Below are positions 22,158-36,152 of a DNA stretch of 36,985 nucleotides, one piece after another. The translations under genes were made by a program, and so were the position numbers. Source of the stretch: an uncultured Lachnospiraceae bacterium (GTDB taxonomy: Bacteria; Bacillota; Clostridia; Lachnospirales; Lachnospiraceae); the NCBI GenBank assembly GCA_947174665.1, contig CAMWJV010000020.1, positions 1 through 36,985 of the forward strand, read 5' to 3'. The first letter of the stretch is position 1, and each line of letters opens with the position of its first letter. The notes under the pieces were generated by a model. It was not told where the DNA came from. It did not search any database and saw only the letters and a list, made by a program, of their open reading frames with translations.

Positions 22158-22228
22158 AGGGGAATAGTACAATGGTAGTGCGGCGGTCTCCAAAACCGTT
22201 GATGGGAGTTCGATCCTCTCTTCCCCTG
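22158..22228 (+). tRNA. trnW: tRNA-Trp (anticodon CCA)
   Basis: A 71-base cloverleaf. The acceptor stem AGGGGAA pairs with TTCCCCT, with discriminator G at 22228. A 7-base anticodon loop CTCCAAA has CCA at 22190-22192. The T loop reads TTCGATC on a GGGAG/CTCTC stem, and the D arm contains the GG pair. The 3' CCA is not encoded, as is common for some Firmicutes tRNAs. Confidence 0.95.
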
Positions 22229-31588: not shown

Positions 31589-32785
31589 ATGAAGGCATTT
31601 TTGATTTTGGAGGACGGCACTGTGTTTGAGGGAATTCATATCGGTGCTCACAGAGAGATTATCAGTGAAATCGTGTTTAACACATCTATGGCGGGATACC
31701 TTGAGGTGCTGACTGATCCCTCGTATGCGGGACAGGCAGTGTGTATGACGTACCCTCTGATTGGAAATTACGGCATCTGCAGGGATGATATGGAGTCCTT
31801 AAGACCATGGCCGGATGCACTTCTTGTACGGGAACTATCCCGTATCCCCAGCAATTTTCGAAACGATTGCACTATCCAGCAGTTCCTCGAGGAGAATAAC
31901 GTTCCCGGCATTGCCGGTATTGATACAAGAGCTCTGACAAAGATTCTGCGTGAAAAGGGTACTATGAACGGCATGGTTACTACCGATGCAAATTACGATT
32001 TTGCCCTGATTCAGCCAAAGCTGAAGGCATATACTACCGGGAAGGTGGTGGAGAGGGTGACCTGCCGGGAGAAATATGTGGTTAAGCCTGCCTTAGATCC
32101 GGCGGAGAACGGGCCTCTTTCCGGGGCGGCCAGGTTTGACAGGGCTGCTTATGAGAGCGGCATCAGGGAGAAGCGGCCTACCCTGGTGAAGGAACTGAAC
32201 GGTGCAGGCCTGAGAGTTGCATTGATGGATTTCGGCGCGAAGAAGAATATTGCCCATTCTCTGGCGGAGCGGGGCTGCGAAGTGACGGTATTTCCGGCGA
32301 CGACCCCTGCGGAGGAGGTTATCGCCATGAAACCGGATGGTATTATGCTCAGCAACGGCCCCGGAGATCCGAAGGAATGTACCGGTATCATAGAGGAGAT
32401 CAAAAAGCTGTATGCCACGGACATCCCTATTTTTGCCATTTGTCTGGGACATCAGCTGATGGCCCTTGCCAATGGATGTGATACCCATAAGATGAAGTAC
32501 GGACACAGAGGCGGCAATCATCCCGTGAAGGATCTGGCTGACGGGAGGGTATATATTTCATCCCAGAACCATGGGTATGTGGTGGACACGGATAATCTGG
32601 ATCCGAAGATTGCGGTTCCTGCCTTTATCAATGTAAATGATGGAACCAACGAGGGGCTGACATACACCGGAAAGAACATCTTTACGGTACAGTATCACCC
32701 GGAAGCCTGCCCCGGGCCTCAGGATTCACGTTACCTGTTTGACAGGTTCATTCAGATGATGAAAGGAGAGAACTGCAATGCCTAA
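31589..32785 (+). CDS. carA: Carbamoyl-phosphate synthase small (glutaminase) subunit
   Basis: Hydrolyses glutamine and passes ammonia to CarB, for pyrimidine and arginine synthesis. The N-terminal domain begins KAFLILEDGTVFEG. The class I amidotransferase triad is intact: Cys285 in ICLGHQLMALA, His370 and Glu372 in YHPEACPGP. ATG 31589, with GCGGGAGG just upstream, is preferred over TTG 31571; length 398 is normal. The 3' end overlaps carB by 8 bases (32778-32785), so the two chains are translationally coupled. A promoter overlapping the upstream terminator lies at 31485-31513. Confidence 0.96.
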   Translation: MKAFLILEDGTVFEGIHIGAHREIISEIVFNTSMAGYLEVLTDPSYAGQAVCMTYPLIGNYGICRDDMESLRPWPDALLVRELSRIPSNFRNDCTIQQFLEENNVPGIAGIDTRALTKILREKGTMNGMVTTDANYDFALIQPKLKAYTTGKVVERVTCREKYVVKPALDPAENGPLSGAARFDRAAYESGIREKRPTLVKELNGAGLRVALMDFGAKKNIAHSLAERGCEVTVFPATTPAEEVIAMKPDGIMLSNGPGDPKECTGIIEEIKKLYATDIPIFAICLGHQLMALANGCDTHKMKYGHRGGNHPVKDLADGRVYISSQNHGYVVDTDNLDPKIAVPAFINVNDGTNEGLTYTGKNIFTVQYHPEACPGPQDSRYLFDRFIQMMKGENCNA

Positions 32786-35700
32786 GAATCCTAATGTAAA
32801 GCGCGTTATGGTAATCGGTTCCGGCCCTATTGTCATCGGGCAGGCCGCAGAGTTCGACTACGCGGGGACGCAGGCATGCCGCTCCCTGAAGGAGGAGGGC
32901 GTGGAGGTCATTCTGGTCAACTCCAACCCTGCCACTATCATGACGGACAAGGATATTGCGGATAAGGTCTACATTGAGCCTCTGACGGTAAAAGTTCTGG
33001 AGCAGATCATTGAGCAGGAGAAGCCGGACAGCATACTCCCAACCCTGGGAGGGCAGGCGGGCCTGAATCTGGGGATGGAACTGGAAGAATCCGGATTTCT
33101 TGCGGCTCACGGCGTAACCCTGCTGGGAACTACCGCCGCTACCATCCGCAATGCGGAAGGAAGGCAGGAGTTCAAGGATCTGATGGAGCGGATAGGGGAA
33201 CCCTGCGCCGCATCCAAGGTGGTGGAAAACGTGGAGGATGGCATTGAATTCACCAATCAGATCGGCTATCCGGTAGTACTTCGCCCCGCATACACTCTGG
33301 GAGGCTCCGGCGGCGGTATCGCCAACAACCAGAGTGAGCTGGAAGAGATTCTGGAGAACGGTCTGCGCCTCTCAAGGGTGGGTCAGGTGCTGGTGGAGCG
33401 CTGTATTGCGGGCTGGAAGGAAATCGAGTATGAGGTCATGCGGGACAGTGCCGGCAACTGCATTACTGTTTGTAATATGGAGAATATTGACCCTGTGGGA
33501 GTGCACACCGGAGACAGTATTGTGGTTGCGCCTTCCCAGACCTTAAGCGACAAGGAGTATCAGATGCTCCGCACCTCAGCCCTGAATATCATCAGTGAGC
33601 TTAAGATCACGGGGGGCTGCAATGTGCAGTTTGCGCTGCATCCCACCAGTTTTGAATACTGCGTTATCGAGGTGAACCCCAGAGTAAGCCGTTCGTCTGC
33701 GCTGGCTTCCAAAGCTACGGGCTATCCCATTGCAAAGGTTGCCGCAAAAATAGCGCTGGGTTATACGCTGGATGAGATTAAGAATGCTATCACCGAGAAA
33801 ACCTATGCCTCCTTTGAACCGACTCTGGATTACTGCGTGGTTAAGATTCCCAGGCTGCCCTTCGATAAGTTCCTCACGGCAAAACGCGCTCTGACTACGC
33901 AGATGAAGGCCACCGGTGAGGTCATGAGCATCTGTGACAACTTTGAGGGGGCGCTGATGAAGGCGATCCGTTCTCTGGAACAGCATGTGGACTGTCTGCT
34001 GAGCTATGATTTTTCCGCACTTTCCCGGGAGGAGCTTACGGAAGCGCTAAAGGTGGCGGATGACCGGAGAATCTGGGTCATTGCGGAAGCCATCCGCAAG
34101 GGTATCAGTTATGAGGAAATCCATAGACTCACCATGATTGATGTCTGGTTTATCGATAAGATTGCGATTCTGGTGGAAATGGAGGAGGCATTGAGGACAG
34201 GGGAACTGACACCGGAGCTTCTGCGGGAGGCAAAAAGACTGGAGTTTCCGGATACCTGCATTGCCAGGCTTACCGGCAGAACAGAGGAAGAGATAAAGGG
34301 GCTGCGGTATGAAAACGGTATCCGGGCAGTCTACAGGATGGTGGACACCTGTGCCGCAGAATTTGCCGCATCCACGCCCTATTACTATTCAGTGTATGGC
34401 GGAGAATGCGAAGCCAGTGGGGATAGAAATTCTAATGCTCGCACCAGTGCGGAGAAAATCACTAAGTTCGAAAGAACCTCACTAAGTGATTTTACGCTCT
34501 GCCCTGCAGAGTTTCTCCGCACCGAAGAATGCCCTGACGGTCATTCTTCACAGTCGGACAGCGACGGGAAAAATTGCTGCGGAGCAGAGTGCCGCGAGGC
34601 GGCGCGGAAGAAGGTGCTGGTGCTGGGTTCAGGCCCCATCCGCATCGGCCAGGGCATAGAGTTCGACTATTGCTCCGTTCATGCCACCTGGGCTTTTTCC
34701 GGAGCGGGTTATGAAACGATCATCATCAACAACAATCCTGAGACGGTGAGTACGGATTTTGATATTGCGGATAAGTTGTACTTTGAGCCGCTGACGGCGG
34801 AGGATGTGGAGTCCATCGTAAATATTGAACATCCTGACGGGGCTGTGGTGCAGTTTGGCGGGCAGACAGCTATCAAGCTGACGGAAAGTCTAATGAAAAT
34901 GGGAGTTCCTATCTGGGGCACAAAGGCGGAGGATGTGGATGCTGCCGAGGACAGGGAGCTCTTTGACAAAATTCTGGAGCAGACGGGAATCCCCCGGGCA
35001 GCAGGCGGAACCGTGTACACTGCGGAGGAGGCCAAGAGTGTGGCAAACCGCCTGGGATATCCGGTGCTGGTAAGGCCCTCCTACGTGCTGGGGGGACAGG
35101 GTATGCAGATTGCCATATCCGACCAGGAGATTGAAGAATTTATGGAGATTATCAACCGGATTGCCCAGGACCATCCCATTTTGGTGGATAAATATCTCCA
35201 GGGCAAGGAGATTGAGGTGGATGCGGTCTGTGACGGCACGGATATACTGATTCCGGGAATTATGGAGCATATCGAGAGAACCGGCGTACATTCCGGCGAC
35301 AGTATCTCCGTTTATCCGGCGCACACCATCGGCAAGCTGGTGAAGGATAAGATTGCGGAGTACACCAGGAGACTTGCCACGGCGCTTCATGTGAAGGGAC
35401 TTATCAACATTCAGTTTATAGCTATCGGTGAGGACGTGTATGTCATTGAGGTGAATCCCCGTTCCTCCAGAACAGTGCCCTATATCAGCAAGGTCACCGG
35501 TATACCCATTGTGGATCTGGCAACGGAGGTCATCATCGGAAAGACCATCAGGGAACTGGGATATAAGCCGGGTCTCCAGCCGGAGGCGGAGTATTATGCT
35601 ATTAAGATGCCGGTGTTCTCCTTCGAGAAGATACGGGGAGCGGAGATCAGTCTGGGGCCGGAGATGAAGTCCACCGGTGAGTGTCTGGGTGTGGCAAAGA

Positions 35701-36152
35701 CATTTAACGAGGCGTTGTATAAGGCATTTTTGGGAGCCGGCGTGAATCTGCCCCGGTATAAAAACCTGATCATGACAGTGAAGGATGCGGATAAGGGTGA
35801 GGCTGTTGAGATAGGCAGGCGCTTTGAAAAGCTGGGTTACACCATCTATGCTACCAGAAGTACTGCGGCTGCGCTGAATGAAGCCGGTGTGAAGGCCAGA
35901 AAGGTAAACAAGATTTCCCAGGAGTCTCCTACTGTCATGGACCTGATTCTGGGCCATAAGATTGACCTTGTCATCGATACTCCCACTCAGGGGCGGGACA
36001 AGAGCAGAGACGGATTTCTGATCCGCCGCACCTCCATTGAGACGGGAGTGAATGTCATTACCGCCATGGATACAGCAAGGGCGCTGGTGAGCAGCCTTGA
36101 GAGTAAGGAGAGCGACGAAAAGCTGACGCTGGTGGACATCGCGGCATTATAA
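32778..36152 (+). CDS. carB: Carbamoyl-phosphate synthase large subunit, with in-frame insert
   Basis: Forms carbamoyl phosphate from bicarbonate, ammonia and two ATP. Two homologous ATP-grasp halves are visible: the first opens [22 protein letters not shown] (near 8) and the second [22 protein letters not shown] (611 on). The C-terminal MGS-like allosteric domain ends [13 protein letters not shown]. Length is 1124, about 50 residues beyond the usual 1060-1075. The excess lies at about 547-610, exactly between the halves, where homologues have a short link. It is rich in Ser, Cys, Asp and Glu and is encoded by a multi-hairpin palindromic element (see repeat entry). The reading frame is unbroken, and the catalytic halves look intact, so function is probably kept. 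Start overlaps carA. Confidence 0.95.
   Translation: [1124 protein letters not shown]
34416..34607 (+). repeat. In-frame palindromic element within carB
   Basis: A folded core lies at 34447-34549. Closing stem: GTGCGGAG (34447-34454) with CTCCGCAC (34515-34522). Arm 1: AAAATCACT (34455-34463) with AGTGATTTT (34485-34493), topped by GTTC-GAAA-GAAC (34466-34477). Arm 2: CTCTGC (34497-34502) with GCAGAG (34506-34511). A separate stem follows at once: GAAGAATG (34524-34531) with CATTCTTC (34542-34549). This makes a three-way junction plus a hairpin. The whole insert has no stop in the carB frame. It resembles protein-coding palindromic repeats such as the Rickettsia RPE type in concept, but belongs to no family I can name. 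Outer limits are estimated from protein length. Confidence 0.8.

Follow-up and report, generated by a model that had tools for sequence, protein, structure and literature searches.

The large subunit of carbamoyl-phosphate synthase (CarB) encoded in the window, by which we mean the whole 36,985-nucleotide stretch of DNA that was analysed, has a greatly lengthened hinge linker, and the DNA inserted there is very probably one copy of a mobile but non-autonomous palindromic DNA element that is dispersed in genomes of Lachnospiraceae. We place the element as a new family within the known kind of small folded bacterial repeats, and with it Lachnospiraceae join the few cases of palindromic repeats known to enter coding sequence; in the open-licence literature we recognised no description of this family. 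The host appears to be an Acetatifactor-like member of the Lachnospiraceae, and its genome, in 215 contigs, is 82.7% complete.

The long hinge linker of CarB

The carB gene (32778..36152, + strand) is an open frame of 1124 aa with matches to Pfam CPSase_L_D1/D2/D3 and MGS, and no stop codon interrupts the insert, as had been predicted. E. coli CarB (1bxr) aligns on both flanks of a run of 60 surplus codons (34422..34601, + strand, residues 549-608) that has no counterpart in the E. coli protein and falls between its residues 555 and 558, at the junction of the two synthetase halves. The original prediction had put the surplus between these halves, at a tolerant hinge, and the alignment confirms the placement at the hinge. 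It had also estimated the surplus at about 50 codons, which was right in that the gene is longer but too low in size: the segment TPYYYS..GPIRIGQG has 94 aa in the window versus 36 aa in 59 of the 80 CarB loci of relatives (all those fetched from named genomes, with linker length measured in each), which by these alignments puts the surplus over most relatives at 58 codons. The segment is 35-41 aa long in 74 of the 80 loci, and the long linker is not a conserved trait of the homologues.

Longer linkers were found in L088 (65 aa) and L089 (76 aa), whose CarB proteins have overall identities of 92% and 90% respectively, in Acetatifactor muris (L090, 50 aa), in L091 (42 aa), and in L114 (54 aa) and L115 (60 aa), whose CarB proteins group closely with that of L166 (36 aa). 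In a FastTree phylogeny computed without the linker from 78 of the 80 loci plus the window, L088 is nearest to the window, within a small and well-supported clade that is unresolved internally; 5 of its 10 rows have linkers above 40 aa, with the other lengths scattered among them. Neither L114 nor L115 has a match to the element models described below, which led us to reject the element as the cause of their long linkers; these expansions seem unrelated to it, and, to judge from the alignments, the CarB hinge probably changes length quickly for reasons besides the element. AlphaFold2 (21 sequences) gave a pLDDT below 50 at residues 547-608, and about 22-35 in the insert, within a model of moderate overall quality (mean 66.3). 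This fits a disordered linker, in agreement with the flexible linker peptide that had been proposed, and the insert peptide probably has no function beyond lengthening the linker.

Bounds and folding of the carB copy

The element proper spans 34446..34550 on the + strand (105 bp, or 35 codons) and consists of a three-way junction and a downstream hairpin, with the four stems that the original prediction had named all present. The outer stem P1 is formed by GTGCGGAG (34447..34454) and CTCCGCAC (34515..34522), and all eight of its pairs are changed on both sides among 46 copies. Stem P2 has a 5' arm made of AAAATCACT, an A.A mismatch position and the tip AGT (34455..34467) and a 3' arm AGTGATTTT (34481..34493), each arm carrying a CTAAG motif; the mismatch lies at 34464/34484 and is followed by a tip stem of 3 bp. 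The hairpin P3, GCTCTGC-CCT-GCAGAGT (34496..34512), is an optional third arm missing from many other copies, and here has 7 bp (34496-34502/34506-34512) with one G-U counted. The second hairpin, GAAGAATG..CATTCTTC, occupies 34524..34549. All these parts lie on the + strand. Folding energies lie well below those of shuffled sequences, with a z of -5.4 for 34430-34555 as RNA (none of 200 dinucleotide shuffles as good) and of -7.5 for 34446-34550 as DNA (again none of 200 shuffles).

The bounds follow from similarity to other copies in the genome: in a plain DNA search the other host copies (E <= 0.0021) match within query bases 28-138 (34443-34553), at best 31-135 (34446-34550), and the covariance model matches 34446-34522, while 34551-34607 has no significant match to the other host copies in the plain DNA search. 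The limits proposed originally, 34416-34607, thus do enclose the palindrome, but only 105 of those 192 bases belong to the element proper. Just upstream, 34414..34440 (+ strand; CCAGTGGGGATAGAAATTCTAATGC, direct repeat D1) is a possible remnant of an older element arm. Similar sequence occurs in the CarB linker of L089, although that linker gave no covariance-model match, and the stretch looks like a separate, older half-element common to this one relative, which would suggest repeated invasion of the hinge.

The long linkers in half of the small CarB clade might be taken to mean that the linker is an ancient, conserved feature in which a palindrome arose by chance, but this is extremely improbable given the 36 aa found in 59/80 relatives, the z values of -5.4 and -7.5, and the 17 other similar copies in the host genome that are described next.

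A dispersed family of folded repeats

The original prediction had called for a search of the host genome with the insert DNA. A plain DNA search returned 17 further host copies at E <= 0.0021, and a covariance-model search at least 56 host copies at E <= 1e-3, with 150 of 1078 first-look candidates scored. A first covariance model was built from 11 aligned copies and a broader one from 46 and, since both are made from copies of the element itself, the copy counts are partly circular, whereas the 17 copies of the plain-sequence search are independent of the models. On the 27-pair junction, 96.6% of the cells of the 11 copies are paired and 14 pairs are doubly changed, and none of 500 shuffles reaches any of these measures. 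Among 102 distinct rows the paired fraction is 97.2%, with double changes in 25 of 26 pairs (480 cells). The carB copy keeps all 27 junction pairs, with compensated changes of its own.

Common outer-stem letters in the family are GTGTGAAG/CTTCACAC or GTGTGAGA/TCTCACAC. In P2 the CTAAG motifs of the two sides face each other around the A.A mismatch (two motifs in 63/101 copies, at least one in 84/101), and a GAAGAA-type hairpin (GAAGAAT-like) lies directly 3' of P1 in 86/100 copies. Arm P3 is optional, and loops may hold extra hairpins. The commonest first bases are A, G, T and G, in 97, 76, 56 and 82 of 100 copies; four rows were left out of the counts over 100 copies, as well as of the frame counts below, and the counts over 100 copies also leave out one row near a contig edge. 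Most full-model matches are 56-103 nt long without the second hairpin, the shortest having 38 nt. In genome G461 the longest units extend further, through a spacer and a third hairpin to GGGGGTTAG, and a similar stretch comes after the host copy at the end of a pyrK-like gene. In some of the G461 units (L311-L330; for instance L313 and L327) the GGGGGTTAG end lies just upstream of a possible start codon, and it may perhaps be a ribosome-binding site for the next gene. In another genome (G076, L228, contig C25:27158-27550) four element copies lie close together in one orientation.

The range of the family is narrow. Matches at E <= 1e-5 were found in 15 of 250 genomes of the bacterial family, and across the order 4 of 196 genomes match at E <= 1e-6, all of the same family, with the host included in both counts. 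With the first model at E <= 0.1, 17 of 61 genomes have matches and all 17 belong to the host's genus; the 24 genomes of other families have none at this threshold. Rfam recognised only a tRNA in the window (22158-22228, its sole match there at the gathering threshold), and in 12 copy loci only a split FMN riboswitch at E <= 1.

Placement at stop codons

Most copies begin almost exactly at the end of a gene. Among all 56 host matches at E <= 1e-3, 42 have their start within -5 to +6 nt of the stop codon that closes a sense ORF upstream (at least 80 codons, or 60 where the edge of the stretch cuts it), compared with 233 of 9867 random positions in the same host loci (2.4%). The same holds in other genomes, where 24 of 39 copies lie at a stop versus 151 of 6962 random positions, the 39 being the fetched loci minus weak, P2-only or edge ones (L067-L072, L082-L086, L223). 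When the test was applied to the other element end on the opposite strand, 7/56 host copies and 4/39 copies in other genomes were counted, and some of the seven may come from the palindrome itself. A further six host copies themselves contain the stop of the ORF; the rest are carB, an ambiguous open frame (L240), a copy within a riboswitch (see below) and five copies without such an ORF, of which one is truncated at the end of a contig. An alternative rule gives 41 copies at a stop, six ending inside, three running through (carB, L240 and L040) and six with none, L040 being counted as run-through where a longer overlapping frame is picked (its stop is at -4 by the main rule). carB is the only clear read-through copy among the 56 host copies.

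In G461, a stop codon is the site of 16 of the 20 fetched copies, and for 13 of the 16 it is a TAG formed with the element's first AG. Of eight gene ends queried, five gave orthologues that were used to compare protein ends with two or three congeners each, namely a pyrK-like gene, an ABC permease, argJ, a nifS-like gene and glgA (the pyrK, permease and nifS matches being below curated cut-offs), and in all five the C-terminus is at the same position or extended by one residue. Truncation of genes by insertion is therefore unsupported; as a rule the element adjoins the stop codon, which it often provides itself, and the protein keeps its full length. The genes upstream of the copies have unrelated functions, and many copies lie in short gaps between same-strand genes. 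We rejected a fixed upstream target motif, as the preferences are weak (G at -6 in 59/100 copies) and come partly from the stop codons, and also an intrinsic terminator, since only 24/100 copies have five consecutive T at a distance of 20-70 nt 3' of P1.

This near-exact placement in sense, with no transposase found, raises the question of how the insertion site is chosen. Random transposition does not explain it, while an RNA-level role could. A more elaborate proposal is that the element is a portable gene junction, with a stop (TAG) at its 5' end, a hairpin block and, in full-length G461 units, a G-rich RBS-like 3' end (GGGGGTTAG), which inserts in sense at native stops by a route coupled to transcription or translation termination and with no conventional transposase, carB having captured one such unit in an open frame where it became protein; we regard this as rather unlikely.

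Evidence for mobility

When gene ends are compared between congeners, the presence of the element is patchy. At the end of mutS, where all 31 genus loci were scanned with the model, only three (G000, G017 and G022) have a match, each at the stop codon, and 21 of the 24 mutS ends that were readable by motif run on without an element. In G461 six copies at different loci share the same 66 nt without a difference, and another three form a second identical set. Of three G461 sites compared with the congener G491, two are empty there; at one of these two the native TGA stop reads TAG in the allele that holds the element, and the protein terminates at the same position. Alignment of the spacer next to the stop is untidy between the two genomes, and to judge from the alleles compared, insertion does not resemble a plain cut-and-paste event. 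At the third site both genomes carry an element, with differing inner and 3' arms, which would be consistent with exchange between subtypes. The G491 element at this third site (L352:4476-4576) has a 5' arm like that of one subtype and a 3' arm and P3 like those of another, and looks like a mosaic of the two.

One host copy (L012/L042, contig C132:8522-8816) splits the FMN riboswitch that precedes a gene for an ECF transporter S component, and sits in a variable stem, which we take to be P4. Both halves of the riboswitch are still recognisable, and the interrupted stem could close around the element. In the 41 genomes searched, a set to which the host does not belong, 36 have an FMN riboswitch above the family cut-off, and one weak FMN match, in G014, lacks a neighbouring element. 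The permease gene end of G001 (L298) that is orthologous to the site of host copy L033 shows short traces resembling what a decayed element would leave. Taken together, the comparisons support that the element moves or has moved. The original prediction of a mobile palindromic repeat that has colonised carB is thus upheld as to mobility by the empty and occupied sites and the identical copies, but not as to habit, the family being usually found at stop codons and not colonising genes.

Pairing and the level at which it is maintained

Covariation as strong as that of this family would by itself lead one to call the element a structured RNA. If an RNA were selected in sense, G-U pairs would be expected far above A-C. 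The mispairs of the element comprise 23 G-U and 27 A-C in 2190 cells (three rows, for places held twice or cut, left out), whereas a control FMN riboswitch of the same genus has 47 G-U and 1 A-C in 513 cells of 27 sequences, a contrast that is somewhat flattered because the control structure came from RNAalifold, which favours G-U over A-C (counted alike, the element has 21 and 25). Selection of a sense RNA as the cause of the pairing is therefore unsupported. About equal numbers of G-U and A-C mean that the arms are re-matched to Watson-Crick complements on both strands alike, and this lack of wobble bias, read from the alignment, points to maintenance at the DNA level; RNA selection on both strands would also give such a balance. 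The wobble test, suggesting as it does arm copying at the DNA level, is a caution for RNA discovery.

This bears on the possibility that the family is a functional 3'-end RNA structure (an mRNA stabiliser, or a ribosome-release or intercistronic hairpin) that spread by duplication, and of which the carB copy is a stray. The sense position at a stop codon in 42/56 copies, the strong covariation and the many copies in short same-strand intergenic gaps would all agree with such a role, but the lack of a G-U excess (23 versus 27 A-C, where the riboswitch has 47 and 1), the occurrence of the element at only some of the orthologous gene ends of congeners (3/31 mutS loci) and the unrelated functions of the upstream genes do not, and we consider it improbable.

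For a mobile DNA element, new copies might arise via a single-stranded hairpin intermediate or by template switching, in which case one would expect arms re-matched base for base without G-U excess, and inner arms swapped between subtypes. Template switching between arms has been inferred for RNA genes, as described in part of PMC8794818. The hairpins treated there owe their perfect stems to one arm serving as template for the other when the DNA is replicated, and the stems here would be kept likewise; in contrast to those hairpins, which sit in RNA genes, the present ones belong to a dispersed repeat with one protein-coding copy.

Reading frame and history of the carB copy

Among the 15 copies of the three-way-junction subtype, 11 can be read through the junction in frame 0 (AGT GTG AAG ...) without a stop, and none can in either of the other frames. 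For the family as a whole, frame 0 is free of stops in 29 of 101 copies versus 22 expected from shuffles, and the open frame is thus a trait of the subtype and not of the whole family. carB reads the element in this same frame (SAEKITKFERTSLSDFTLCPAEFLR), so that the element's usual stops were never in the carB frame and none had to be lost; loss of a stop (TAG to CAG) was accordingly rejected as an explanation, carB reading a different frame that is open in those 11/15 copies. The one open frame of the subtype would allow an in-frame insertion to be tolerated, and offers a testable route from mobile DNA to protein.

The nearest relative, L088, carries at the same place in carB a different, shorter subtype that the original prediction had not noticed, whose outer stem has the letters GTGCGG/CCGCAC as in the window. 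It is detected by model R1 (E 1.9e-4), in the building of which L088 had no part, and none of the other 79 CarB loci has a model match in its linker. The simplest reading of these sequences would be insertion in the common ancestor of the window and L088, followed by replacement of arms. In this history the element would have entered the linker in that ancestor, the insertion would have been tolerated as the linker is disordered and variable in length, and the copy would since have kept its pairing while its arms changed.

The fragmented genome from which the window comes (215 contigs, 82.7% complete) might raise the suspicion of an assembly or binning chimera, with the palindrome absent from carB in the organism itself. 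With a frame open for 1124 aa, all 27 pairs kept with compensated changes proper to this copy, and a related element at the same place in the independently assembled L088, such an artefact is very unlikely. It is just as hard to believe that the insert, highly structured and in an otherwise conserved gene as it is, is removed from the mRNA or protein in the manner of an intron or intein to leave a CarB of normal size: the frame is kept in L088, L089 and L090, which likewise have longer linkers, no Rfam intron family matches the window or the scanned copy loci, and nearly all host copies lie outside genes or at gene ends.

Comparison with known repeats and the search for a mobilising enzyme

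Rickettsia palindromic elements (RPEs), as presented in sections of PMC10969869, are about 100-150 bp long and are found in frame in unrelated genes, their peptide lying at a tolerated place of the protein. The present family is like them a multicopy palindrome of that size (105 bp in carB, 56 copies). The parallel drawn in the original prediction holds for an in-frame palindrome within a gene and fails for the intragenic habit: nearly half of the first-described RPEs are in genes (same sections of PMC10969869), as against 1/56 clearly read through here. Compared by description, the family is further set apart from RPEs by its different phylum, its multi-arm junction and its placement at stop codons.

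At gene ends the element behaves, again by description, like the pneumococcal BOX elements and the GTAG REPs. According to the parts of PMC3049150 drawn on here, 58 genes overlap a BOX and 36 of them take their stop codon, at the extreme 3' end, from it, with no strong sign that they are truncated, and one BOX lies between two T-box riboswitches. Both families are modular, folded and non-autonomous and supply a stop without truncation, but BOX is built as boxA-boxB-boxC with terminal inverted repeat (TIR) similarity to ISSpn2 (PMC3049150, same parts), whereas the present element has nested hairpins with re-matched arms. It also differs in that its start is fixed at the stop codon and in that one copy lies inside, and not beside, a riboswitch.

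GTAG REPs, as far as described in portions of PMC3733652, are palindromes near 3' ends that often supply TAG stops, with some inside genes; they are 20-40 bp long, GTAG-tagged and associated with Y1 (RAYT) transposases, while matches here are mostly 56-103 nt and have the GTAG end tetranucleotide in 7/100 copies (any NTAG in 32/100). CGTC REPs, which by the same portions of PMC3733652 include some RPEs, are likewise palindromic and without a known dedicated transposase, but they are defined by a CGTC end tag, and copies here mostly start AGTG. The element therefore falls outside GTAG and CGTC REPs by their defining features and lacks the intragenic habit of RPEs.

The transposase domain Y1_Tnp (Pfam PF01797) has no match in the host G000 (82.7% complete) or in G001, G005, G017, G019, G027 and G032. 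It is present in 12 of 41 genus genomes, the host not among them, including the copy-bearing G014 and G026 (open frames of 157 and 155 aa) and, among the genomes with weak element matches only, G002 and G031. We therefore rejected a RAYT/IS200 enzyme as the general mobiliser, PF01797 being present in 2 of 9 copy genomes at E <= 1e-3 and 4 of 17 at E <= 0.1. Terminal repeats with target duplication were not found, and no duplication was seen at the two empty/occupied pairs, where the spacer aligns uncleanly. TAG-like letters stand at both ends of the full-length G461 units and recall cleavage at a short tag, which we take only as a lead.

Beside this family, a second, longer hairpin repeat was observed in the congeners G008, G032, G002 and G012 (L068, L083, L084, L086, L072 and L085); it has only the P2 tip (like CACTAAGTTCGAAAG.ACCTCACTAAGTG) in common with the family, and its outer stems are quite different.
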